Of a stretch of 64,000 bases of DNA, positions 1-48,681 are shown one piece after another. This DNA comes from Leucothrix mucor DSM 2157 (GTDB taxonomy: Bacteria > Pseudomonadota > Gammaproteobacteria > Thiotrichales > Thiotrichaceae). How positions within the stretch are numbered: position 1 is the stretch's first letter; each line of letters begins with the position of its first letter. Under the pieces are notes generated by a model, which saw only the letters and a program-made list of their open reading frames with translations, was not told the DNA's origin and did not search any database. Made by a program: the position numbers and the translations under genes. The DNA lies in NCBI RefSeq assembly GCF_000419525.1, contig NZ_ATTE01000001.1:1612001-1676000 (forward strand). The letters run 5' to 3'.

Positions 1-2334
1 CTGTAAACCATCTGGAGTCGCCGTATCCAGCTGAAGCTCCTCAACTTCCGTTAATCCATAATGCTGTGCAACGGCATCACCCAAACGATTGCGTTGTGAC
101 CTTGAAAAGTGCTCAAATCCAGCTCGTAAATGCACGAGCATCAGGTCAAAGGTTGTTTGGTCGACGCGCTCCAGCAATGAATCAATGGCGGCAATCAGTG
201 CTTTAGCGCCTAACAGTATCGACGTTTGTGACGTGGTCATGACGCCCTGGATAAACTGACTGCAATGCACAACCTCTTCCGGCGGTGCATAACGATACTG
301 TTCAATATGCGCGGCTAAAGCCTGTCCATCACGTTGTTTTATCTCCATCAGCACTCCCCAGAAACTACCTTGTAAAAAGGGAGCCTGATAGCTGTCTGCG
401 GCTTGTTGCAGGTATTCGATAAATAAGTCTCGATCAAGCCCTGGCAAATCATCACTAAGGTAGGTCTGAGTCAGCTGCAATAAGCCTTGAATAATCGCTG
501 TATCATTTTCTCCGGGTGTGCTGCTAATCAGTAGTAAGCTATGCGTGGCCCGCAAAAAACACTGCTCCAGTAACGGCTCCAGCGATGGAATCTGATGATC
601 CAGTCGCGCGAGTTGATGCCTGCAGCGCTGTAAGTTGGCGACACTGTTAGCCAGTGATATGAAGTGTTGATCTCGTTGTAAGGCTTGTTGACACAGGCTA
701 TGCGCTTTCATGATGACCTGCGGTAAGTCCATCTTCAGTGCATCGAGCAAAGTGTGACTGATCGCCTGCATGGATTGCCGTGCATTGGCGAGCTGGTCAT
801 TAATATGACCGAGTATGACCGTCTCAATCGTATCGCCATAAGGGCTAAGCCTGATTAGGCTTTCCTCGGTACCCACCTGAAACTCACAGTGCCATGTTTC
901 GGTAAATATCAGATTGTCGTCATCCGATGAAAACTGCTGTTCAGAAAATGGAATGCTGAGATAACTCAGCCGGTGTAGAAACGCACTGGTAGAGCGCCCA
1001 TTTTCCGTACGGATATCAAGCTTACATTGCCAGCCATAACCCTTGTTCTTGTTTAATTCATACCGCGCTAATAACTGATAAAAGTGACTCACCAGCGGTA
1101 ATTGGCCGGCACGCGGCGTAATGTATCCGCGCTTTATACCAATCAGGGCTTTATCCAATGCGCGTTGCAGGGCCAGGCCTTCTTGTTCAGGGTTCCCTTT
1201 ACAACAGCAAGTGATGATTGCATCCAGTATGTCATCGAGGATTGGCCGCATCCGGTTACGGAGTTGGCATAACATAAGCGCGTGTTGGCTACTCGATAAG
1301 GTATCAGCAGCGGATAAGCTTTCACCTTGCTGGCGGGCGCTATGGATCAGATATTGCATGGATTTATACAGGGCTTCTTCGTTCAGCTGTTCGGCGATTA
1401 GGTTTTGCCATTGCAGCTGGTAAAAGTAGGGCGCGCGATTGCCCGCCTGATAGCCACTTTGCTCGGATAGCCGCTCGTAGGTGTAAGGCACCAGCGTGTG
1501 ATAAGCCTGTCCAATATTATCTTGATAAGCGATGTGGCGCTGATGTTGCTCCATAAATAGGTGCAAGCCACCACACACGACCATTGCCTCATCCGGTTGT
1601 TTTAGGTGTTGCTGAATGTGTTGCCACATAAACGCCTCGCGCTTCAGCGTATCTGCGCTGAGCTGCGTGGTTGCCCGTACGGCCGCGCAAAAGCAGGCCA
1701 GTTGATAGCGGAACTGTTCTGGCTCAATGGCATCCCGTTCAAAATGCGCATCCCAGCATTCATTCCAGCTTTGATAGCCACCGTTCTCTACTAACTGCTG
1801 ATAGAAATGACTCGTGAGAAAAGGCGTGATGTCATCCGACTCATCGGCTTCATCGCTATCAGAGTTCGCTTCGGTGAATGACGGACGCATATACGCAGGC
1901 AGGTCAATCAGAATGACTTCTGCGCCTATTTCCTTGGCGAGCTGAATCGCCACGTATTCAGGTGAGTAACTTAGCAGCGGGTGCCAGGTGCCCAAGCTGG
2001 GCATGATGTCGGCTGAGGGCGTATTGATGTTAGCCAGACCAAGCTCATTATGTTGGTCGCTAAAGCTAGAATATAGCGCCACGGGCGGCTTGGTTTGAGG
2101 GTCGGTGAGTAGGGGTAGTACTTCTGAAAACGAATAGGGCAGTTCAATAAAGATTTGTTTGGGACGACGCTTGAGAATGGCCTTACGCAAAAAATAAGCA
2201 CAGTGAGGCGAGTGATGGCGTATCGGAAACCAATACAGTGCCTCATCCAGACGCGTTTGTACCTGATCTTGCAGTTGCTCAATGAGCGGCTCATCTAAAC
2301 CGGCTTGCTGCCAAAGCGTGTTGATAGCGGGCAC
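1..2334 (-). CDS. DUF5682 / YehM-like protein, partial at left edge
   Basis: An open frame of 778 codons reads leftward from a GTG at 2334, one base beyond the TAA of the MoxR gene (2336-2338), and is still open at position 1, so the C-terminus lies outside the window. The N-terminal part carries a WFPIRHHSPHCA stretch, followed by an IFIELP segment and later VVCGGLH. To my memory these are typical of DUF5682 proteins (E. coli YehM type), which are encoded beside MoxR ATPases and VWA proteins. The role is unknown; MoxR partners are usually chaperone-like or protein-maturation factors. The reading frame was checked by hand at several places along its length. GTG is the only good start next to the upstream stop. 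The family name is from memory of the motif, not a search. Confidence 0.75.
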   Translation of the reverse strand, partial: MPAINTLWQQAGLDEPLIEQLQDQVQTRLDEALYWFPIRHHSPHCAYFLRKAILKRRPKQIFIELPYSFSEVLPLLTDPQTKPPVALYSSFSDQHNELGLANINTPSADIMPSLGTWHPLLSYSPEYVAIQLAKEIGAEVILIDLPAYMRPSFTEANSDSDEADESDDITPFLTSHFYQQLVENGGYQSWNECWDAHFERDAIEPEQFRYQLACFCAAVRATTQLSADTLKREAFMWQHIQQHLKQPDEAMVVCGGLHLFMEQHQRHIAYQDNIGQAYHTLVPYTYERLSEQSGYQAGNRAPYFYQLQWQNLIAEQLNEEALYKSMQYLIHSARQQGESLSAADTLSSSQHALMLCQLRNRMRPILDDILDAIITCCCKGNPEQEGLALQRALDKALIGIKRGYITPRAGQLPLVSHFYQLLARYELNKNKGYGWQCKLDIRTENGRSTSAFLHRLSYLSIPFSEQQFSSDDDNLIFTETWHCEFQVGTEESLIRLSPYGDTIETVILGHINDQLANARQSMQAISHTLLDALKMDLPQVIMKAHSLCQQALQRDQHFISLANSVANLQRCRHQLARLDHQIPSLEPLLEQCFLRATHSLLLISSTPGENDTAIIQGLLQLTQTYLSDDLPGLDRDLFIEYLQQAADSYQAPFLQGSFWGVLMEIKQRDGQALAAHIEQYRYAPPEEVVHCSQFIQGVMTTSQTSILLGAKALIAAIDSLLERVDQTTFDLMLVHLRAGFEHFSRSQRNRLGDAVAQHYGLTEVEELQLDTATPDGLQ

Positions 2335-2335
2335 C

Positions 2336-3460
2336 TTATAGTGCCGCGCGAGTGGCCGCGTAAAACTTATCCCACAAGGCGCTATCGGCTGCCCGTCGTT
2401 TGGCGACGAGATTCAGGTATTCGCGCAGGGTGTTGCGGTCCGCTTCATCTTCTTTAACCACCGCGCCCACCAAGTTTGCGGCGATGTCATCGATGCGTAC
2501 TTTACCGCCACCTAAATACTGGGCATGAATGGCAGCATCCAGTAAAACAGAGATACTTTCAGCCGTTGATAAGGTGCTATTCACCTCGGTAATCTTCACT
2601 CCCTCGGTCGTTCGCCCCTGCCGTAACTCCCGAAATACCGTACTGAGTAGTTCAATGATATTAGGCTCAATGTCTACCTGTAGCTGATACTGGCTACTCA
2701 ATTCAGTGATGCGTTGTCGAATAATCGCCTGTTCGGTGGCGCTATCCTTAGTCATGGGAATATGGATGTAATTAAAACGGCGTTTTAGCGCAGCTGATAA
2801 CTCATTCACCCCTTGATCTCGTGAATTAGCCGTGGCTATGACATTAAAACCGGGCGTTGCCCAGACCATATTGTCATCCGGTAGCTCAGGGACTGCGATG
2901 GATTTTTCCGAGAGGATTGAAACCAGACTGTCCTGCACATCAGGCACACAACGCGTGATTTCTTCAAAGCGTAATAGGCCACCTTGCTGCATGGCGGTCA
3001 TGGACGGCGACGGGATGCGGTTTGAGCTGCTGTAACCTTCGGCAATCACCTTGGCGATATTCCAGGTGTATTTAATATGCTCTTCTGTGGTGCCCGCCGT
3101 GCCTTGAATCGTTAGCGTTGAGTTGCCACTAATGGCCGCAGCCAGATTTTCAGATAACCAGCTTTTACCAGTGCCCGGATCACCGATTAGTAGCAAGGCG
3201 CGCTCTGAGGTCAGCGTAACAATGGCACGCTCAACTAAGCGATGATCCCCAAAAAACTTGGTAGGAATCTCCACCTCAATGGTTTTGCGTCCTTTTTTTA
3301 AGGTTTGAGGCTTGCCACCCACAATAAACTCCAAGACCTTACGGGGAGATAGCTTCCATGAAGGGGGCGCAACATCGGTATCATTCTGTTTTAAGGCAGC
3401 TAACTGCTCGCTGTATTGTTGCTCCAGTGGCGCTCGGAGTACCTTGTTTTTAGTGGCCAT
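2336..3460 (-). CDS. MoxR-family AAA+ ATPase (YehL-like)
   Basis: A 374-residue AAA+ ATPase of the MoxR group. Walker A GDPGTGKS is at residues 93-100, Walker B LLRFEE at 162-167, sensor-1 IATAN at 208-212, and an arginine-rich ALKRRF at 224-229. Length and neighbourhood match E. coli YehL. MoxR ATPases typically remodel or mature partner proteins, often together with VWA-domain proteins. It starts 4 bp after the 378-residue protein gene and is followed directly by the DUF5682 gene, so these genes form one operon read leftward. The substrate is not visible from sequence. The ATPase class is certain; the YehL subgroup is inferred from the adjacent gene. Confidence 0.9.
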   Translation of the reverse strand: MATKNKVLRAPLEQQYSEQLAALKQNDTDVAPPSWKLSPRKVLEFIVGGKPQTLKKGRKTIEVEIPTKFFGDHRLVERAIVTLTSERALLLIGDPGTGKSWLSENLAAAISGNSTLTIQGTAGTTEEHIKYTWNIAKVIAEGYSSSNRIPSPSMTAMQQGGLLRFEEITRCVPDVQDSLVSILSEKSIAVPELPDDNMVWATPGFNVIATANSRDQGVNELSAALKRRFNYIHIPMTKDSATEQAIIRQRITELSSQYQLQVDIEPNIIELLSTVFRELRQGRTTEGVKITEVNSTLSTAESISVLLDAAIHAQYLGGGKVRIDDIAANLVGAVVKEDEADRNTLREYLNLVAKRRAADSALWDKFYAATRAAL

Positions 3461-3464
3461 ATTG

Positions 3465-4601
3465 TTACCGTAATTTTTTTAATAGTGTTTTATAGTCTGT
3501 TTTATCCTGACCCAACATCAAGTGGCGTGGGCCATTTTCTTCCAGCACGCTGAGTGGCTGTAACACTCGCTGCCCCAACTCGTAATGCATCAATGCAAAT
3601 AAAGGTGGATGCGATGCTGACTTTTTCAATGCATTGAGTGCCAGTAATAAAGCCTCGCCTTCGGTGTAACTGCTGACCAAGGCAATGTAATCCGTGCCTG
3701 CTGCTCTGATATCGATGACGTAACGATCTTCAAAAGCCGGATCATGGCGCGTATCACCCATTTCCCAGGTCTCTAATAAGATCTCACTTTGCAGATCAAT
3801 CTCCAGATCAAAAGGGCTTGGGCAATAGTTTTTTAACTGCGCCCGAACAGTTTCAGGGTTTTCGCGTGCTAGCGTGGAAAGTCCATCCTGATGCGCTATG
3901 GGGTGTAAGGCTGTCACAGTAGAATCTGGCGTTAATGTGAGCCTTGCTCGCTGCTCGGTTTCATGACTTATTTTGACATGACTAAAACGAATAGCGTGAG
4001 AAAGCAGGAAGCGAGGGTAATAGTTTTGTGGTTGGCTAAAATCGAGAAAAGCTTCAGGGTGAACAGTCGCTTCCTTGCCTTTGGACGCTAGCGAAAACAC
4101 CAAAGAAAATATCAACGTTTTACCTGCTAAGGCATGCTCTTGGTCGAGCACTCGCAGTCGAAACTCAAAGGCTGCAAACACATTGGCGATCAGTTTTTTG
4201 GAGACACCTAAGGTAATCACTTCGAGGTCATCCAGAGTTTCAGTGGAGGGCGTTAGATTTAGCGATTGCCAAAGTGTTTCGTTCTGTTGCTGCATGGCTT
4301 CCTGTAAGCCTTGGCACATCAGCCAGCTACGGTTTAAAAAGAACGATAAGCGTCTCGCGGAAAAGGCATCATCTTGCTTAACATAGCGCTGTATTTCCTG
4401 AGTTAATAAACGCAGATTAGAGCCTAAACGCGTGACACCTAAGCTGGAAATATGACTAAATGATTCACCAAATTGGGCGACGGTATGATCGGAGCTGGTG
4501 CTCATGCCTGTTTGCAACAATCGCTCAATGGCCGTACTGGTTTGGGTGAGGGCAATAATCAGTGCCTTGCCTTGAGAAGAGTCTGCACAAATTAGCTGCA
4601 T
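3465..4601 (-). CDS. conserved hypothetical protein in MoxR operon
   Basis: A 378-residue protein with no signal peptide or clear membrane segment, probably cytosolic. Its ATG overlaps the stop of the upstream 112-residue gene by one base (TAATG), and the MoxR gene follows 4 bp later, so the three are translationally coupled. I recognise no catalytic motif. The N-terminal half looks helical and leucine-rich, and the C-terminal half is richer in beta-type segments. It occupies the place where other MoxR/DUF5682 clusters carry accessory proteins (SWIM-type or DUF5691), but I see no CxC...CxH zinc motif, so I do not assign it to those families. Confidence 0.7.
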   Translation of the reverse strand: MQLICADSSQGKALIIALTQTSTAIERLLQTGMSTSSDHTVAQFGESFSHISSLGVTRLGSNLRLLTQEIQRYVKQDDAFSARRLSFFLNRSWLMCQGLQEAMQQQNETLWQSLNLTPSTETLDDLEVITLGVSKKLIANVFAAFEFRLRVLDQEHALAGKTLIFSLVFSLASKGKEATVHPEAFLDFSQPQNYYPRFLLSHAIRFSHVKISHETEQRARLTLTPDSTVTALHPIAHQDGLSTLARENPETVRAQLKNYCPSPFDLEIDLQSEILLETWEMGDTRHDPAFEDRYVIDIRAAGTDYIALVSSYTEGEALLLALNALKKSASHPPLFALMHYELGQRVLQPLSVLEENGPRHLMLGQDKTDYKTLLKKLR

Positions 4602-4939
4602 TATATATCCACTCCAAAACCTTGCTCATCATCACTTTCAACGATGTCGGCTAAACAAGCCTGCTGGGTAAATAAGCGCTCAAATAGAAAGAGTGCGGTT
4701 TGTAATTTTAGGCACGCGATGGCCGCATCGGACTGTTGGTGAATGGCTTCGGAGAGTTGCTTTAAGCAATCGGCGAGATAAGTCGCATCTTGTGATGAAA
4801 AAAGTATTTGGGCTTGTTCCAGTAATTGCAGCTCGGATTCATCGACCGAACTTAAGCCGCGTAATAGCAGCCTGTCGAGTAAGCTTTTTAGGTAAACCAG
4901 AGTGTTTACCACTTCTTGTCGAGTGTCAGAATCAATCAT
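4601..4939 (-). CDS. small hypothetical protein, first gene of MoxR operon
   Basis: A 112-residue acidic protein, predicted helical and cytosolic, rich in Leu, Gln, Asp and Glu. It has two short stretches of heptad-like leucines (around residues 13-25 and 35-65) and two cysteines near the C-terminus. It is the first gene of the leftward operon: its stop overlaps the ATG of the next gene, and 177 bp of noncoding DNA with a divergent gene lies upstream. No family recognised. It could be an adaptor for the MoxR complex, but that is only position-based inference. Confidence 0.6.
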   Translation of the reverse strand: MIDSDTRQEVVNTLVYLKSLLDRLLLRGLSSVDESELQLLEQAQILFSSQDATYLADCLKQLSEAIHQQSDAAIACLKLQTALFLFERLFTQQACLADIVESDDEQGFGVDI

Positions 4940-5116: not shown

Positions 5117-7336
5117 ATGTCTCCACGTTTTCAGGTATCCAGACTATCACTTTGTTTATGCCTAGCACTCTTCGCGCACCACGCCAGCGCGGATGAGAGT
5201 GAAGCGCTTGCTGATAAACTGAAAGCAGTTGCCATTTCAGCTCAATCAATAGAATCCAATAAAGACTCTAATTTACGGCCCGTTGTTCTGGAAACAGAGC
5301 GTAAGTTAGTGATGCCTGCCTATTTACGAACAAGACTTCCCGAATCAGCCATAGCGTATGCCAGAGTGCCAAATATCTGGAGCGCTTTAGGAACTGCGAG
5401 TAACGATGTGCTTGATTCTGCTAACGGCTCACAAGCATTCGTAAATGCCACTCGCTCGATAAAAGAGGGATTTGTCGAGACATTAATCCCAGAATTCCCC
5501 CAAGGCTTACGCCAACTTGTAGAGCTAGTACTGCAACATACAAACTCTCCCATAGAAGCCGTTGCATTGAAAAGTGCCGCTTCAGGTCCTCTTCCTGCGA
5601 ACCTACTTATCACCACTGCAGCAGACTTTGAATCACTTGATGTGCTTAAAGAAATATTGACTGAAATAGCGTCACGTTCTCCTAAAATAACAATCCAGCA
5701 AGCATTGGACGAAGACGGCTTTTCAGAAATAATCGTTGATGATTTAAAAGTACAAATCGTTTGGAGCAAGACACTATCCCGCCTGTTTTTCTTCATTGGC
5801 CAAGGCGCTACAAAAGAGAGTGTGATAAGCCTCGCCACTAATTTGAAACTCAATGAAAGTCACACAATGCTCGTCGCAGAAAAAGACATTGATGATAGTG
5901 AGCAGGGTAGTTTTCTTTGGGTAGGTCCGCCGCAGCTAATCAGTATAGCCAAGAAAATAGGATTCTCATCAAGTGATCTGTCTGTGCTTTCAACAGCAGG
6001 GGTAAACACCATGAGCAGTGCCGCGGTAGGTATTGGCTCTCACAATGGAATCAATCATTTGAAGCTTGCTTTTGACATGCAAGCAATGGGCTTGAGAGCA
6101 CTGATCCCCAGCATTGATACTTTTCCGACCTTTAACTTGAATGGAAAAACCAGCCTGGTTGCGACCATAGGCCTTCCAGAAAAGTCACACATCATGGCTT
6201 ATGAAACGATGATGTCAATGGGCTCACCGGAGAGCATGGCGGGCTACAACCAATTCAAAAAAGCCTTTGCAGAGACCGCGGGGTTTAAGCTGGAAGATAT
6301 CTTTGACTTTTTTGGTCAAGACATCAGTATTGTGTTTGGCGAAAGCGGCACCTTTTTCGCAGTGCGTTTAAGCAATGAAGCCGCATTCAAAACAGTCCTT
6401 GAAAAGTCGGTTAAAGATTTTAATCTGGCCTATGAGCAACGAGAAATATCTGGCCACACCTACCATCATCTACAGCTACCAAATATTTCTCTTGATGAGG
6501 CAGTAATCGCTAATCTAACCAGCAGCAATGGTATTGTTGCTAAGCGACTGCTCTCTGTTCCGACGCATTTGTATTGGGAGCAAGAGGGTGAGTATTTAAT
6601 TATAGCCAGTCTTCCCCAAACATTGATGGATCGACATAATGTGTCACCCTCTGTACCAGCCAATGAGTGGCTCAAGGATACCCAACGCGTCGACCCTGAT
6701 GGGGCATTGCTGATGGTCTCGGCCGTCACTGAGGGCGTTCCTGCGTCTGTTTATCGTACGCAACTGTCCATGCTCAGCTTTTTTGGAGACTTAACCGAGC
6801 GGCCTGTGGATCTTTTTAAATTACCCACGCCCAGAGAAGCCAAGCTCCCCAAGCAAGGCACTTATGGGTTAAAGCTAACGTCCAGTGACACAGGACTTGC
6901 GATAGAACTTTCTTTTGAAGACAATCCCTTTGAGTTGTTTGGCGGCAGCACTTACCTCAGCACTGCCGTTGCAGGTGCTGCAGCACTCATTGGAATATCC
7001 GCACAAGAGGAATACGAAAAACAACAGGTTCGACAAAAAGTAGCCGTTGGCTTTACTGCAGCTAAAAGCGTCAGCGATGCACTCGACCAGTACAAGACTA
7101 AATACGGTAACTACCCAGACCAAGCAACCATAGATTTACTTGATTTAGAAAGACAAGAAGTGACTTATACGCTATCTATTGAAGATACTACCGGCATCGT
7201 GAAAATTGAGTACCACATCAATAAGTACTTGGGTGGAGACGATCAATTAATACTGCAGCCACCCTCCGGTGAGTCATTAGAGTGGGTCTGTGAGTCAGGT
7301 ATTTTCTCTTGGTATTTACCGGAATCATGCCTGTAA
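5117..7336 (+). CDS. exported DUF3352-like protein with C-terminal type IV pilin-like domain
   Basis: A 739-residue protein. An N-terminal signal peptide covers about residues 1-25 (hydrophobic core, ASA cleavage region). A long periplasmic body begins with an LPESAIAYARVPN segment, which resembles DUF3352-type proteins. At about residues 608-628 there is a hydrophobic segment (TAVAGAAALIG), followed by EEYEKQQVRQKV and an AVGFTAAKSVSDALDQY helix, then KYGNYP. The chain ends with WVC...LPESCL, two cysteines framing a short loop. That order (hydrophobic helix, charged stretch, amphipathic helix, N-[GT]-YP, cysteine-bounded loop) is that of type IVa pilins, but here it is C-terminal and lacks a prepilin leader. 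The gene starts at an ATG after AAGGA and stands alone, divergent from the MoxR operon. Function unknown. Confidence 0.75.
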   Translation: MSPRFQVSRLSLCLCLALFAHHASADESEALADKLKAVAISAQSIESNKDSNLRPVVLETERKLVMPAYLRTRLPESAIAYARVPNIWSALGTASNDVLDSANGSQAFVNATRSIKEGFVETLIPEFPQGLRQLVELVLQHTNSPIEAVALKSAASGPLPANLLITTAADFESLDVLKEILTEIASRSPKITIQQALDEDGFSEIIVDDLKVQIVWSKTLSRLFFFIGQGATKESVISLATNLKLNESHTMLVAEKDIDDSEQGSFLWVGPPQLISIAKKIGFSSSDLSVLSTAGVNTMSSAAVGIGSHNGINHLKLAFDMQAMGLRALIPSIDTFPTFNLNGKTSLVATIGLPEKSHIMAYETMMSMGSPESMAGYNQFKKAFAETAGFKLEDIFDFFGQDISIVFGESGTFFAVRLSNEAAFKTVLEKSVKDFNLAYEQREISGHTYHHLQLPNISLDEAVIANLTSSNGIVAKRLLSVPTHLYWEQEGEYLIIASLPQTLMDRHNVSPSVPANEWLKDTQRVDPDGALLMVSAVTEGVPASVYRTQLSMLSFFGDLTERPVDLFKLPTPREAKLPKQGTYGLKLTSSDTGLAIELSFEDNPFELFGGSTYLSTAVAGAAALIGISAQEEYEKQQVRQKVAVGFTAAKSVSDALDQYKTKYGNYPDQATIDLLDLERQEVTYTLSIEDTTGIVKIEYHINKYLGGDDQLILQPPSGESLEWVCESGIFSWYLPESCL

Positions 7337-41949: not shown

Positions 41950-42645
41950 ATGAATGTAAGCCGTTTACCCGCAAATGCGCTGGACGTCTGCCAATTGCCT
42001 GCCACATTCAGCATGGATAATCTTAACGCGTTACAGCTGGATGCTAGATATACGTCACCCCCATGTCGTAAACATTTAGCCCACCATGTAAAGCGGTATC
42101 CGCTGGATCTTCGTGCGCAAGTGCAACGCGTTTTAGCTAGCCAAGACCAAGATAACCTGCCCGGTGTGTTGCAGGATTTATTCATTGCCTTGAAAGATAA
42201 AGGGCTAAAGCTGCGTGGCTTGGTATTTGAGCAAGTGCGTGAAAGGCTCTCTGAGGCTGATCAAACCTATTTCTCCAATTGGCTAACCCACGATTTTGAG
42301 CACAGTTATGATGGCCGCTTTCTACCAGGCTCAGTGCTAGCCACTGGCGTCGCTCAAGCACCTCAGCCATTGATTGTGCAGGCCGCGAGAGTACAAAGCA
42401 GCTACACCAGTTTTTACCAGGAAGCGCTGGATTGTTTGGAATACGGGCAACTTGAAACGGCTCAGGAATTACTGGAGCAGGAGCTATTAAATCCCGAAGG
42501 GGATGAGCGCGCAGAGCAAGAATTGCTGCGTGTTTATAGCTACACCAAAGATTATGAAAGTCAATCACGCTTGATGCAGCTATTGCAGTCGCAGGGACGT
42601 GAACCGGGTGCGGAATGGAATCTGCCCGATCCGGATACTAAGTAA
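41950..42645 (+). CDS. hypothetical protein of the GTPase/FimV block
   Basis: A 231-residue soluble protein without signal peptide. The N-terminal part is not recognised, and residues about 150-215 look like TPR-type helices (EALDCLEYGQLETAQELLEQ), similar in style to the FimV C-terminal domain. It is the first gene of a run of seven genes on this strand. The next gene starts 16 bp downstream. The ATG at 41950 follows a weak site (GGATTTTAGG). Function unknown. Confidence 0.65.
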   Translation: MNVSRLPANALDVCQLPATFSMDNLNALQLDARYTSPPCRKHLAHHVKRYPLDLRAQVQRVLASQDQDNLPGVLQDLFIALKDKGLKLRGLVFEQVRERLSEADQTYFSNWLTHDFEHSYDGRFLPGSVLATGVAQAPQPLIVQAARVQSSYTSFYQEALDCLEYGQLETAQELLEQELLNPEGDERAEQELLRVYSYTKDYESQSRLMQLLQSQGREPGAEWNLPDPDTK

Positions 42646-42661
42646 CATTGACAGAGACCTA

Positions 42662-43978
42662 ATGATGGTTGAAACCAAGCAGAATATGACTTTGAAGGTG
42701 TGTCTTGAGGATGTAGGCACCCATAACAAGGCAATTCTCGATTTCTTTTTTACAAAACTCGGACAGCATATTTTCCAGCAGGTGGACAGCCAGCAAGCGG
42801 CGAATACGTTGATCATTGATTATGATTATCCGCCAGCACGTCAACGCTTTGAAGTGGATTATAAGGATTGGCAAAAGCCTGCCTTAATTCTGTCCATTGC
42901 GCCGGTGGCGCTGGATAATGTGATCTGGCTGGCAAAGCCACTGACCAGCCGTGCTTTGCTGGAAGCTGCTGAAAAAATTCAAGTGCAGTTGCGTGATGGG
43001 ATTAGTCATTCTGATCCAGCGCCTGCCGCAGTTTCAGAAGCACCAGTTAGCCCGGTAACTGATACCCCAACTGAGTCACAAGCTCCCGCTAAACCGGTTG
43101 AGCAAACAACACGATTTGCACCTCCCGTACAGCGACCAGAAAAGAAACCTGCCACAGCACCGGTTAATTTACCGCTGGTTAAAGATGCCAAGGAAGAGGC
43201 GGCAGCGGACTCAACGTCTGCACCAATACCGGTGGCTTATCGCAAATCATTACTTTCAGAGTCCGAACAAACTCAGCGCAGGATTGATCTGTGTGGTGAA
43301 CGAGATGATGTGCCCACCACAACGGATGTGGAAGAACTACAAGGCGATGACCGTTTTTTCCTCTCCAGCTTAAAAGATGCGGTGAGATTAGCCAGACAAT
43401 GCCAACAAGGCGTGATGCTGGATTTCCCACAACTTAGAATTTATGTGTTACCAGAAATACATCGGGTGTTCTGCGCGGTAGATCTTTACAGTGATGAGTT
43501 TATTCGCCTGACCAGAGAGTGCAATGCAGGACAGGGCGGCAAGATGCACATCCTTAGCACTAAAGAGATTCATGAGCTCAATGACATGATCGCTCAGCAG
43601 GTTTCAGCCTTATACGACCTGGAAGCTTTCCTCTGGAGTAGCGCACTATTATCATCACAGGGATTGTTATCTCGGGGACTTGATCCAACGCAGGCTGTGG
43701 GCTTACGGCACTGGCCAGGACTGACCCGAATTGAGCACTTTCCGCACGTTATGTCGATTGCCGCACAGTGGTCTGTCGCAGCCATTAGCGCATTTGAGGT
43801 TGCAAGGTCATTAAATATCCCGCAACGCTATGTGTTTTCCTTTTATAATGCGGCAAATGCCCTAGGTTTGATCGAACAGGATCCTGATAAGTTGATTAAG
43901 AAAAAGTCCGTACCCCGTACCACCGAAGCCCCGCGCGGCCTATTCTCGCGGTTATTGAAACGGTTGATTGGGGGGTAA
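42662..43978 (+). CDS. hypothetical protein of the GTPase/FimV block
   Basis: A 438-residue soluble protein. Residues about 1-110 look receiver-like (alternating beta and alpha, LKVCLEDVGTHN...TLIIDYDYP); then a Pro/Ala/Thr-rich linker (about 115-200), and a C-terminal all-helical domain (about 240-415) with a winged-helix-like end. ATG 42662 is chosen over an upstream GTG (42599) that overlaps the previous gene. The phosphoacceptor Asp is not evident, so a receiver fold is a guess. It is the second gene of the block. Confidence 0.6.
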   Translation: MMVETKQNMTLKVCLEDVGTHNKAILDFFFTKLGQHIFQQVDSQQAANTLIIDYDYPPARQRFEVDYKDWQKPALILSIAPVALDNVIWLAKPLTSRALLEAAEKIQVQLRDGISHSDPAPAAVSEAPVSPVTDTPTESQAPAKPVEQTTRFAPPVQRPEKKPATAPVNLPLVKDAKEEAAADSTSAPIPVAYRKSLLSESEQTQRRIDLCGERDDVPTTTDVEELQGDDRFFLSSLKDAVRLARQCQQGVMLDFPQLRIYVLPEIHRVFCAVDLYSDEFIRLTRECNAGQGGKMHILSTKEIHELNDMIAQQVSALYDLEAFLWSSALLSSQGLLSRGLDPTQAVGLRHWPGLTRIEHFPHVMSIAAQWSVAAISAFEVARSLNIPQRYVFSFYNAANALGLIEQDPDKLIKKKSVPRTTEAPRGLFSRLLKRLIGG

Positions 43979-43988
43979 TGACACTATT

Positions 43989-44534
43989 ATGAGTACCGTT
44001 AACAGGAAAATAATTTTCACTGGTCCAGTCGGTGCGGGTAAAACAACCGCCATTCGCTCCATCAGTGATATCGAAATTGTCACCACTGACGAGCAAGCCT
44101 CCGACATGGCTAAAGCCCGTAAACCAGCGACCACAGTGGCCATGGATTATGGAATGATTAAGCTTGGCGATGAAGAGCGGGTACACCTCTACGGCACGCC
44201 GGGTCAGGAACGCTTTAGCTTTATGTGGGACATTCTCACTGAAGGCGGCATTGGTCTGGTGTTATTGCTGGATAACTCCCGCAAAGACCCACAGCAAGAC
44301 CTCAAATTTTACACCCACGCATTTCGCGACTTTATTCAGGCACAGCAATTGGTGGTTGGTATCACTCGTATGGACACGCATCGTGTGCCAGCGGTGAACG
44401 ATTACCGTCAGTGGCTGGATCAGTTAAAAATCAAAGCACCCGTATTTGAAATTGATGCCCGTCAGCGTGACGATGTGTCTCTCTTAGTACAGGCGATGCT
44501 GATCTCTTTGGCACCGGGAGCAGAAATAACATGA
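43989..44534 (+). CDS. MglA-like small GTPase (COG2229 type)
   Basis: A 181-residue Ras-like GTPase. G1 GPVGAGKT (residues 12-19), G2 Thr near 48-49, G3 GTPGQERF (69-76) and G4 TRMD (126-129, replacing NKxD). It lacks a membrane anchor. Such COG2229 GTPases, like MglA, often work with roadblock proteins (two here) as GTPase-activating partners and act in cell polarity and type IV pilus motility. Starts at ATG 43989; an upstream GTG in frame is less likely. Its stop overlaps the next gene by four bases. Confidence 0.88.
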   Translation: MSTVNRKIIFTGPVGAGKTTAIRSISDIEIVTTDEQASDMAKARKPATTVAMDYGMIKLGDEERVHLYGTPGQERFSFMWDILTEGGIGLVLLLDNSRKDPQQDLKFYTHAFRDFIQAQQLVVGITRMDTHRVPAVNDYRQWLDQLKIKAPVFEIDARQRDDVSLLVQAMLISLAPGAEIT

Positions 44535-45187
44535 GTGAATACGTTTCAAGCGAAGGACTGTTCATGGGAGTCACTCCCGGTGGCAGCTTTTATGCCGTTC
44601 AGGATGATGCAGACGAGTTTGGTCGGCAATTCTTGCGTCGCCTATTGAGCGCCGATGAGACACCGTCCTTTAATTTAGAGATTGCGCAAGACTTAAGCGG
44701 CCTGAATGATCAAACCGAAACAATGGAGTTTGTGCATTTACTACAAGATGCCGGCTTTATTTATGGTCAGGCAAAAAAAGAAGCGGCTCCGGCTGGCAGC
44801 TTGGAAAGCATGCTTCCGGATATCTTGCAGCGCTTATCGGGTGATGGCCGTGCCGTATTGGCTGAGGGACAGGGCTTGTATCTAGGCAGCTCTGGCTTTC
44901 CTCATGAGGCCGCTGAAGAGCTAGCCGCATTGAGTGCCAGCTTGAGCGCTATTTATCGTCGCCATAAAGATGTATTGAAAGGAAATTTGGGCTACCGCCA
45001 ACGCGCCTGGGGATTGATTGACGCGGCGGGTAATAGTGAAATTGGCTTCTGGCCATTATACATAGGTAAAGATCGTTTTACCTTGATTGTTGGCGGGATG
45101 CCACAATTGAATCAACCAGCTTTTACACAATTAATCTGGGCACTTGAGCGTCGCTACGGCTCAACAAGCCCATTACAGCTAAATTAA
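44531..45187 (+). CDS. divergent roadblock-like protein
   Basis: A 218-residue protein. Its ATG overlaps the GTPase stop (ATGA), so they are coupled. Residues about 105-210 look like a roadblock/LC7 domain: GQGLYLGSSGFPHEAAEELAALSASL, then the ending with FTLIVGG. The N-terminal part (1-100) is not recognised. It could bind the GTPase. Confidence in the fold is moderate and based on pattern alone. Confidence 0.6.
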   Translation: MSEYVSSEGLFMGVTPGGSFYAVQDDADEFGRQFLRRLLSADETPSFNLEIAQDLSGLNDQTETMEFVHLLQDAGFIYGQAKKEAAPAGSLESMLPDILQRLSGDGRAVLAEGQGLYLGSSGFPHEAAEELAALSASLSAIYRRHKDVLKGNLGYRQRAWGLIDAAGNSEIGFWPLYIGKDRFTLIVGGMPQLNQPAFTQLIWALERRYGSTSPLQLN

Positions 45188-45210: not shown

Positions 45211-45573
45211 ATGCGTGCGGAAATGTTAAATTCGATATTGAGCGACCTGAATGGGTCAACAGCTGACATTGAAGCGTCAGCTGTGCTATCAAAAGATGGT
45301 CTGATGATGGCGGCTTTGCTACCGGCATCGATGGATGAAGATCGGGTTGGCGCAATGAGTGCGGCAATGTTGTCACTGGGTGATCGTACAGCTCAGGAGC
45401 TGGCACGCGGTACGTTGGAGCAAGTCCTAATCAAAGGTGACCACGGTTACATTCTAATGACGCATGCGGGCCATGAAGCAGTTGTTACCGTATTGGCAAA
45501 GCCAAATGCACGCTTAGGTTTGATCTTCTTAGATGTGAAGCGTGCTGCCGAAAGCATCGCCAAGATTCTTTGA
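45211..45573 (+). CDS. roadblock/LC7-domain protein (MglB-like)
   Basis: A 120-residue single-domain roadblock protein: EASAVLSKDGLMMAALLP is the first strands, then helix DRVGAMSAAML, followed by LEQVLIKGDHGYILMT and LGLIFLDV. The fold is that of MglB, the GAP-like partner of MglA in Myxococcus. It follows the GTPase by two genes, so a GTPase-regulator pair is likely. Good ribosome site (GGAGAAAGGG). Confidence 0.88.
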   Translation: MRAEMLNSILSDLNGSTADIEASAVLSKDGLMMAALLPASMDEDRVGAMSAAMLSLGDRTAQELARGTLEQVLIKGDHGYILMTHAGHEAVVTVLAKPNARLGLIFLDVKRAAESIAKIL

Positions 45574-45583
45574 GGGTAATCTA

Positions 45584-47248
45584 ATGACAACCCATTCACA
45601 CGTGGCTTTAGGTGTTAAACGCGCGCTAGGTTTAGCGGTACTGGCTACCTCTATTAGCTTGCCATTGGCGCATGCAGATACCAATTATGGTCCTGTTCGC
45701 CCCGGTGAAACACTGAGCGATATTGTGAATGGGCATTATCTGGTCAGCCCGCTATCTGATCAAGCCATTATGCAGGCGATTGTCCGGAATAATCCCGGCG
45801 CCTTTATTAATGGTGATATTGGGCGGTTGCGGCAGGGTGTGATTTTAAGCTTGCCAGCTGATCCTGCAATCAGTCAGCTGCAAAATGGTGGCATTGATCT
45901 TGATGCGGTGAGCCGCCTGGTGAGTTCGCAGTCAAGCCGACCTGCGCCACGTGCTGTGGTCAGCGCGCCTGTCACGCCATCACCTTCTAATACTTCCGAG
46001 CTGAGCAGCCTCCGTCAGGACCTATCTCAATTGCGTCGCGAACGGGATTCATTGAAAGATGAATTAAGTACGCTGGAGCAAAACACGGATGAGCTTCGAA
46101 GCAAACTGCAGGCGCTAGAAACCGAAAACAGGCAGGTCAATCGTCAGTTGTTATCGGCTGAAAGCTCATTAAATACGGTACGTGAGCAACTTAAGCAGGC
46201 CGAAGCGGATAAGGCTGAAGCATTGGAATCAGCTACTGCCGCTCAGGCGAAGGTTGAGGCGTCAGAAGAAGCCGCGACAAGTGCTCAGCAAGCTGGTATC
46301 AATACTGATATCAGTAGCAGTGAGCCAGCTAACGATAATAGAGATATAACATCTGAAAGCGAATCAGCGGCAGCGCCAGATCCTGAAATACTGGCTAAAG
46401 AAGGTCGCCGTGTTGCCGAGTTAGAGCACACCATACGGGAAATCCAAACTCAAAAAGAGCGTGAGTTGGCAGACTTACGTGATGCAATCGCTGAGAAATC
46501 CACGATTCAAGAGGCCATGGAAGGAAATCTCAATGATCTTGATGAAACGGTACGACGTTACGAAGCAGAAATATTCGAATTAAAAACAACAATCACCACA
46601 CTGAATGATCGCATTGATGCAACGGCATTAACGGGTGAGGCTCCAGCGGCTTCAACCCAAGTTGTTCAGGAAAACAGCAGTACTGAAATCATTACTGAAG
46701 CTTCGCAAGCGCTGACTCAAACCACCGCCTTCGATCCATTTAGTGTTCGCTCGGTTGATGATTTAAAGCAGTCAGTCAATGTACCGCTCTGGGGCTTACT
46801 ACTTGGCGCTTTGGCACTGGCCTTAACCAGCTTAATGACCTTACTAGGGCGCAGAAAACGTCATGATGAAGTCATTGCATCGCCGAAGATTACTCCAATT
46901 ATCGAGAATGAGCCGGCAGCGGAATTGGTATTCCGCACCGGAGCCTCTCAGCTGCAAGACCCTGATGTAGAAAGCTTACGTGTACCCCCAAGACGTGATG
47001 CTTCTCGTGTTGCCGTATTAGACCCAAGCATCATCTCGAGTACAGAAACTGCAAACGAGCCGGAAGCCACCGAGTCGGAATACACTGCAGAGCAATTACA
47101 AGAAGGGCAGCTAAAACTCGCGATGGCAGAAGCTTATTTAGAGCTTGATGATGAGTCAGCGGCAGCGGAGCTACTGCAGGAAGTGCGCCAAGAAGGCTCG
47201 ACTGAGCAAATTGCCACAGCCAATAAGTTACTGAGCCGACTGGCTTAA
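45584..47248 (+). CDS. FimV-like protein 1
   Basis: A 554-residue inner-membrane protein. A signal peptide of about 31 residues, a LysM-like domain (about 33-90, YGPVRPGETLSDIV), two coiled-coil regions (about 140-240 and 275-345), one transmembrane helix near 400-420 (WGLLLGALALALTSLM), and a cytoplasmic FimV-type C-terminal domain (about 505-554: LKLAMAEAYLELDDESAAAEL). FimV is a polar peptidoglycan-binding landmark that promotes type IV pilus and twitching. I start it at ATG 45584 after GAGGG. It lies 10 bp after the roadblock gene. Confidence 0.85.
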   Translation: MTTHSHVALGVKRALGLAVLATSISLPLAHADTNYGPVRPGETLSDIVNGHYLVSPLSDQAIMQAIVRNNPGAFINGDIGRLRQGVILSLPADPAISQLQNGGIDLDAVSRLVSSQSSRPAPRAVVSAPVTPSPSNTSELSSLRQDLSQLRRERDSLKDELSTLEQNTDELRSKLQALETENRQVNRQLLSAESSLNTVREQLKQAEADKAEALESATAAQAKVEASEEAATSAQQAGINTDISSSEPANDNRDITSESESAAAPDPEILAKEGRRVAELEHTIREIQTQKERELADLRDAIAEKSTIQEAMEGNLNDLDETVRRYEAEIFELKTTITTLNDRIDATALTGEAPAASTQVVQENSSTEIITEASQALTQTTAFDPFSVRSVDDLKQSVNVPLWGLLLGALALALTSLMTLLGRRKRHDEVIASPKITPIIENEPAAELVFRTGASQLQDPDVESLRVPPRRDASRVAVLDPSIISSTETANEPEATESEYTAEQLQEGQLKLAMAEAYLELDDESAAAELLQEVRQEGSTEQIATANKLLSRLA

Positions 47249-47403
47249 CTCGCTAGAAAATACCGTTAGTCTGTTTTTAAATGATTTTGCTAAGACTGGT
47301 GATACATTGTCAGGCATGATTCGTGCCAAAATAAAATAATAACTCGCACAAATTCCGGAGCCATCGAAACAACTCGTTGGCACCTGTCTGGAGCATAACA
47401 ATA

Positions 47404-48681
47404 ATGACAATGATTACTTCCCTTCAAAACATTTCCCTTAAACCACTCGCCAGTGGCTTAGCCTTTGCCTTGATCGCAGGCTTAAGTTCACCTGCTTTTG
47501 CCGATCAGGTTTATGGGCCGGTGGCATCGAAGGACACGCTGGGGAAGATTGTTAATCGTTTTTATGTAGGCCCCAATCGCAGCACGATACAGCTAATGCG
47601 CGACATCGTACAAAAGAATCCCCAAGCCTTTATTAGCGGCAATATGAACCGGCTAAAGCTAAATGCCTTACTGACATTGCCTGGCGATGAGTGGCTAGTT
47701 AATGAGCCCCGTTTTCGTACTCCCGGCGCACAAGCGGCTGCGGTAGCCATTGCCAATAGCCGCAGTATTCCTGTTAGTATTGCGAAGACTGTCTCTGCTG
47801 ATTTGCCAACGGATAAAATGCGTTCACGTTTAGTCTTTTTGGAGGCCGAACGTAGCAGCTTAATCAGTCAGGTCGCTGAACTTGAGCGGGAAACCGAGCG
47901 CTTAGAAGCGGTTATTAAGCAGTTAGAAATCAATAGCCGCGCCAGTGATGAGCAGTTGCGCGCATTAGATATTGAAATTTCTCGCCTGACTAAACTACTT
48001 GAAGGTAAGCAGGGTGTACCGCTTGCATCGGGTGAAGTGATGCAATTAAGTGCTCTGCAAGATCGCCTCGAAGCAGTTCAAAACGAGACGCAATCCTTAC
48101 GCCGTGAGCTTTCAAAAGCCAATACTGAATTAGCAAATAACGCCTTTTTAAAGCAGCAAGCTGACGAGACGATTACCAAGCTAACTCAGGAAAACCGTCA
48201 GCTACATCATTTACTTCAAGATACTCAGCCGGGCGTTAATTACTTCGGCGAGAAATCTGAAGAATACCAATTAAGCTTTTTCGACGGCAAACTTCAGTTT
48301 CCACTCTGGATGGCGATTGTTGGCGGAGCCTTGTTGTCTGTCATGATGATCACTTTGCTTGCGACACGCCGTAAAAACCGTTCACCAGAGCCGGAGCCAA
48401 CGGATGCATTGAATGATTCCACTCCGGCGAATTACAATGATTTACTAAGTGGCCATACCGATCACATCGACCCAGAGATTAACCCTGAAATTCCTGAAGA
48501 AAATGTCTTCAAAATGTTTGATGAGGGCTCGCTGGAAGTGGAGCTTAAGCTAGACATGGCTGAAGCCTATCTGGAAGTGTCTGACTTTGATTCGGCGCGC
48601 AATATTTTGGAAGAAGTCATGGAAACAGGCAGTGAAATGCAGCAACGTAAAGCAGCCCGCTTGTTAAAGCAGGCCGCTTAA
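47404..48681 (+). CDS. FimV-like protein 2
   Basis: A 425-residue relative of the preceding gene. Signal peptide (about 1-38), LysM-like segment (YGPVASKDTLGKIV), coiled coil (about 140-260), transmembrane helix near 300-320 (FPLWMAIVGGALLSVMMI), and C-terminal FimV domain (LKLDMAEAYLEVSDFDSARNIL). It is shorter than most FimV proteins. ATG 47404 is preferred over an upstream start that would precede the signal peptide. The gap to gene 1 is 155 bp, so it may have its own promoter. Confidence 0.85.
   Translation: MTMITSLQNISLKPLASGLAFALIAGLSSPAFADQVYGPVASKDTLGKIVNRFYVGPNRSTIQLMRDIVQKNPQAFISGNMNRLKLNALLTLPGDEWLVNEPRFRTPGAQAAAVAIANSRSIPVSIAKTVSADLPTDKMRSRLVFLEAERSSLISQVAELERETERLEAVIKQLEINSRASDEQLRALDIEISRLTKLLEGKQGVPLASGEVMQLSALQDRLEAVQNETQSLRRELSKANTELANNAFLKQQADETITKLTQENRQLHHLLQDTQPGVNYFGEKSEEYQLSFFDGKLQFPLWMAIVGGALLSVMMITLLATRRKNRSPEPEPTDALNDSTPANYNDLLSGHTDHIDPEINPEIPEENVFKMFDEGSLEVELKLDMAEAYLEVSDFDSARNILEEVMETGSEMQQRKAARLLKQAA

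Follow-up and report, generated by a model that had tools for sequence, protein, structure and literature searches.

It is the N-terminus that defines a type IV pilin, and a gene of Leucothrix mucor DSM 2157 raises the question of what a pilin fold does at the opposite end of a large exported protein. The window analysed here comprises 64,000 nucleotides of contig NZ_ATTE01000001.1 (positions 1,612,001 to 1,676,000), and the gene, with all features given below, is located on its forward strand (5117..7336). The open reading frame is intact from the ATG at 5117 to the stop codon at 7336 and encodes 739 amino acids; the 5.2 Mb genome contains one copy of it. From the sequence, a Sec-type, SPI-like signal peptide was read at residues 1 to about 25 (5117..5191, AHHASA/DE, no lipobox). 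It is followed by an N-terminal domain at residues 60-602 (5294..6922), which resembles TP0453 by fold, and by a C-terminal module at residues 603-739 (6923..7333). Scans with Pfam and NCBIfam named no family anywhere in the protein. Landmarks of the module are a hydrophobic stretch at about residues 612-627, the motifs YEKQQVRQKV and GNYP, and the terminal WVC...LPESCL. Predicted structure and alignment place a long alpha1-like helix at residues 612-663 (6950..7105) and a C-terminal loop between Cys725 and Cys738 (7289..7330), which are invariant in the family and would form a disulfide like that of the pilin D-region.

The identity of the tail (residues 603-739, approximately) as a type IV pilin module was confirmed by sequence comparison and by its predicted structure. 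Used as a single-sequence query, residues 614-738 were matched by stand-alone pilins of other genomes (best E-value per genome 1e-6). All 13 of the 13 intact homologues that were scanned whole pass the gathering cut-off of PF00114 (Pilin, 22 bits) at the same place with 25.9-61.9 bits, while the window copy stays below it because its helix motif is degenerate and has no Pro22. PF07963 had zero matches in all fusions scanned. A profile of 32 tails matched PilE in the PDB at 1e-32; since the alignment to Neisseria PilE runs from residue 7 to the end, pilin residues 1-6 are absent from the module. When the tail was modelled alone with AlphaFold, a helix at positions 13-61 and four strands were predicted (pLDDT 86). 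In the model of the whole protein (mean pLDDT 80), the helix lies at 612-663 and the strands at 684-727, and the helix length is 49-52 residues across both models. The best PDB matches of the tail model in a Foldseek search are pilins of Neisseria and Pseudomonas: 1ay2 (E 9.6e-4), 5vxx, 8p3b and, lower, 1oqw (TM-scores 0.68/0.65) are all type IV pilins, with a probability of 1.00.

The original prediction of a pilin-like domain at the C-terminus of a large Sec-exported protein is thus borne out by homology, by PF00114 in the relatives and by the predicted fold, in which both the pilin helix and the four-stranded sheet appear. With the type IVa pilins (PF00114; Neisseria PilE, Pseudomonas PAK PilA) the module shares the long alpha1, a head of four antiparallel strands and the C-terminal loop framed by cysteines, the disulfide itself being putative; the GILAAIAIPAYQDY..RA segment of these pilins also occurs in relatives of the window protein. 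Unlike them, it has no class III signal, no Glu5 and no residues 1-6, and it is located C-terminally in an exported protein.

Homologues with the same fusion could be found in number: 36 relatives were identified in the Gammaproteobacteria, giving 37 proteins including that of the window. Twelve full-length relatives with 22-42% identity in alignment A1 came from a protein query of 274 Gammaproteobacteria genomes, in which a query with the tail only also returned ordinary stand-alone pilins. Another 20 were found on GTDB contigs, including those of Kangiella, Rhodanobacter, Dyella, Tahibacter, the Osedax symbiont Rs2, Candidatus Venteria and Woeseiaceae, and four came from class- and order-wide profile searches. 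A GTDB scan with the single window protein as query gave no match, and the scan with the alignment used a helix-motif pattern, which biases these loci towards intact helices. The presence of the fusion is patchy, as only 4 of the 63 genomes of the window's order have it. The N-terminal domain, about 545 amino acids long in the family, was never found without the module in 369 genomes of the class: all 14 real matches lie in frames of 707-831 amino acids that contain it. A match to the domain profile in genome G044 (L080) was discarded as a chance fragment in an aminotransferase-like ORF. One GTDB protein from Saccharospirillum (L059) ends directly after the hydrophobic half of alpha1, referred to as the half-helix below, and has no head, so the pilin head is dispensable at least in this protein.

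Neither a conserved gene neighbourhood nor a link to pilus operons was found among the 12 relatives. In none of them does the gene have the diverging upstream neighbours or the small lipoprotein-like gene that lies 205 bases downstream in the window, and an operon conserved together with the adjacent MoxR-type ATPase genes was rejected due to the absence of synteny in the same 12. A four-gene run on the reverse strand of the window (1-4939) includes a MoxR-like AAA+ ATPase (2336-3460) and looks by eye like a putative MoxR/VWA-type cluster. Elsewhere in the window, on the forward strand, two adjacent proteins at 45542-48681 have putative FimV-like N-termini (YGPVRPGETLSDIV / YGPVASKDTLGKIV), and a cluster at 41950-45187 consists of a putative small MglA-like GTPase (43968-44534) and its neighbours.

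The trees of the N-terminal domain and of the module agree in several groups, including Kangiella and the group of the window protein with L002 and L038. In the module tree, three small groups are scattered among the stand-alone pilins. Repeated independent capture of the module, as suggested by this scatter, was not adopted, since a single clade of fusion modules is not rejected by the AU test (p = 0.27). One stand-alone pilin (L103, G032:C250:1018-1401), encoded beside canonical pilins and starting with GFVFIDLL instead of GFTLIEL, falls among the fusion modules in the tree.

What the family lacks in comparison with stand-alone pilins is the processing site. A prepilin motif occurs in 42 of 43 stand-alone pilins and in 0 of 33 fusions, none of which has Glu5. 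For this reason, the module would not be able to enter a pilus as a regular subunit; the family is related to pilins by descent and is not a pilin by definition. Further along the helix, Pro22 is kept in 32 and Gly14 in 26 of the 33 fusions; the window copy, which has lost Pro22 and the AIPAY motif, is an exception within the family. Because GTDB loci found by the helix-motif pattern favour intact helices, conservation was recomputed on 17 proteins chosen independently of this motif. In this set, the half-helix is the best-conserved 17-residue segment of the entire protein, with a majority identity of 0.77 versus 0.46 in the N-terminal domain, and conservation of the pilin head is low (0.42). 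Within the head, alignments A1 and A4 show no variation at Trp723, Cys725 and Cys738.

For the N-terminal domain, a Foldseek search with the full model revealed TP0453 of Treponema pallidum (PDB 3k8g-3k8j; E 2.3e-6, probability 1.00, TM-score 0.50 on the target, rmsd 7-9). Six TP0453 chains lie below E 1e-3, with moderate TM-scores of 0.44-0.51 on the target, and the likeness concerns the fold of a part of the domain. TP0453 is an outer-membrane-associated lipoprotein, and most members of the window family have a lipobox. In contrast to the family, it has about 250 amino acids instead of about 545 and no pilin module; the N-domain profile had no match to TP0453 among the PDB sequences, and the window member is without a lipobox. 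Judged by their titles, the TP0453 papers deal with amphipathic helices, with a change from a closed to an open state and with the permeability of membranes. An internal tandem repeat in the domain, hinted at by the order of the predicted elements, was dismissed, as comparing the profiles of its two halves gave a probability of 0.7%.

A lipobox is present in 27 of the 37 family members, among them the closest relatives of the window protein, including those of its own taxonomic family (L116-L118). The alpha1 helix has the usual length of about 50 residues, while its hydrophobic half is shorter, often 13-17 residues, and weaker than in pilins. Its Kyte-Doolittle maximum averages 1.87 in the window family, versus 2.94 in stand-alone pilins and a mean of 2.94 in eight C-terminal pilin fusions with cytoplasmic or membrane domains; the p-value of 7e-6 for this difference overstates independence, as the members are related. 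The window copy reaches 1.39. A transmembrane half-helix would place the Cys-framed head in the cytoplasm, since the N-terminal domain is exported. Judged from its sequence, the half-helix is probably weak enough to be translocated, and the whole protein would then be periplasmic, usually lipid-anchored, with a TP0453-like N-terminal domain.

Canonical pilins are located at 3.05 Mb in the window genome, which also has PilQ, and 12 of the 13 other fusion genomes searched contain at least one further pilin-type match; the exception, G196, has no other one at the search threshold. PilQ is matched strongly, at E 1e-145 or better, in 13 of the 14 fusion genomes. However, PilQ exceeds the cut-off in 306 of the 369 class genomes, and due to this near ubiquity its co-occurrence with the fusion is uninformative.

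As the best explanation, held tentatively at a probability of about 0.42, we propose a periplasmic exported protein in which a module that does not stop in the membrane serves as a docking part to pilins or the pilus machine. The whole chain would pass through the Sec translocon and fold in the periplasm, tethered by lipid where a lipobox exists. The shortened and less hydrophobic half-helix would not stop transfer, so that the cysteine pair could form its disulfide. With less certainty, and as a working hypothesis, the conserved alpha1 segment from Gly14 over Pro22 to Arg30, which serves filament packing in pilins, may bind pilins or the pilus machine from the periplasm, while the TP0453-like domain may act on the envelope or membrane. 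The decay of the helix motif in the window organism might mean that the role of this copy is weakened or altered. Docking is opposed by the lack of a conserved neighbourhood, by G196 without another pilin, by the headless L059 and by the window copy without the helix motif.

Almost as good as the docking hypothesis in merit, if somewhat improbable when taken by itself, is a function of the half-helix unrelated to pili, as a lid or self-association element. It would pack into a hydrophobic cavity of the N-terminal domain or bundle several copies in the manner of a pilus core, thereby controlling lipid or membrane binding. The Foldseek match to TP0453 fits this, together with the amphipathic helices and the closed-to-open transition named in the TP0453 titles, as do the conservation of the half-helix and not the head, its retention in L059 and the constant coupling of the N-terminal domain to the module in the 369 class genomes. 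However, TP0453 is similar by fold only, without a sequence-profile match, and the full model predicts no packing, as the start of the helix (residues 614-630) has a pLDDT below 50. The half-helix might also be a genuine transmembrane segment holding the exported protein in the inner membrane. Its hydrophobicity maximum is about 1.9 in most members and, in nearly all of these proteins, exceeds that of any other segment; the residues flanking it carry more negative charge on the N-terminal side, and members without a lipobox need some anchor. We consider this unlikely, as a disulfide-type head would end up in the cytoplasm behind the exported domain, and the short segment is weaker than in pilin fusions that should span the membrane, above all in the window copy. 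Anchoring of the window protein by the tail, which the original prediction had considered, is possible but not favoured, given the attenuated half-helix, the lipid anchor of most members and the cytoplasmic cysteine pair that stop-transfer would entail.

Its other suggestion, that the protein joins a pilus-like assembly, is not supported for a subunit, as the prepilin peptidase site and Glu5 are missing in every member checked. A subunit at the tip or base that escapes prepilin processing would agree with the conserved filament-packing residues Gly14, Pro22, Tyr24 and Arg30, and Glu5 is sometimes absent in tip-capping minor pilins (PMC10191384). Such a subunit is nevertheless very improbable: its signal would be of the Sec or lipoprotein type and not class III, and the N-terminal domain of 600 amino acids would occupy the place where the N-terminus of alpha1 has to enter the filament core (PMC10191384). 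Slightly less improbable, and still doubtful, is a relic of one old fusion that is kept by inertia and decaying. The poorly conserved head, its truncation in L059, the degenerate helix of the window copy and a single origin compatible with the tree test would be expected from a relic, in contrast to the strong conservation of the half-helix and a cysteine pair and Trp723 that are invariant across families.

The window family can be compared with other pilin fusions. The modular pilins PilB and PilC of S. sanguinis (PMC8179133) also join a pilin module to a large unrelated domain. Their pilin part is N-terminal with a class III signal, and the domain order is reversed in all members of the window family. 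As the survey PMC8179133 covered only proteins with an N-terminal IPR012902, fusions of the window type fell outside it. A literature search, to which most subscription journals were out of reach, turned up neither a description of uncleavable pilin modules at a C-terminus nor literature on DUF3352 or on PF00114 with domain architecture, and nothing relevant on DUF805 with pilin. In the genomes, three M48 peptidases from three genomes (L121, L122, L123; PF01435 and PF00114) have a C-terminal pilin module without prepilin motif, and further uncleavable modules follow DUF2628 (L119), a zinc ribbon with DUF2628 (L124), TM2 (L125), GYF_2 (L126) and DUF805 (L062). Two other long frames with pilin matches, L120 and L127, were excluded as ordinary pilins on account of their canonical prepilin motif. 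Like the window family, the M48, DUF2628, TM2, GYF_2 and DUF805 fusions have lost Glu5 and kept Gly14 and Pro22 in a PF00114 module behind another domain. Their partners, however, are membrane or cytoplasmic domains and their helix, as hydrophobic as that of a normal pilin, should cross the membrane in the normal direction, whereas in the window family an attenuated helix follows an exported partner.

It thus seems that other envelope proteins reuse the pilus-subunit fold as a plug-in part, without the processing site but with the remainder of the first helix. It is conceivable, if speculative, that an uncleavable module, trimmed at the prepilin peptidase and Glu5 region, is widely reused in Gammaproteobacteria and, behind exported lipoproteins, M48, GYF_2, TM2, DUF2628 and DUF805, brings proteins from the periplasmic side to pilins or to the type IV pilus system. 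Should the module have kept its binding to pilins, current searches miss a layer of pilus-attached envelope proteins; otherwise, a pilin helix and head are used outside filaments. Two further arrangements were observed. In G198, the genome with the closest full-length match to the window protein, a frame (L115:3805-6342) encodes a protein with a hydrophobic segment at its N-terminus, behind which lie a pilin head (PF00114 at 31 bits) and, further on, ankyrin repeats. About 1.8 kb from the window-family copy of its own genome, another frame (L055:1449-2033) encodes a secreted DUF4124 domain and, behind it, a pilin head that lacks the hydrophobic helix.
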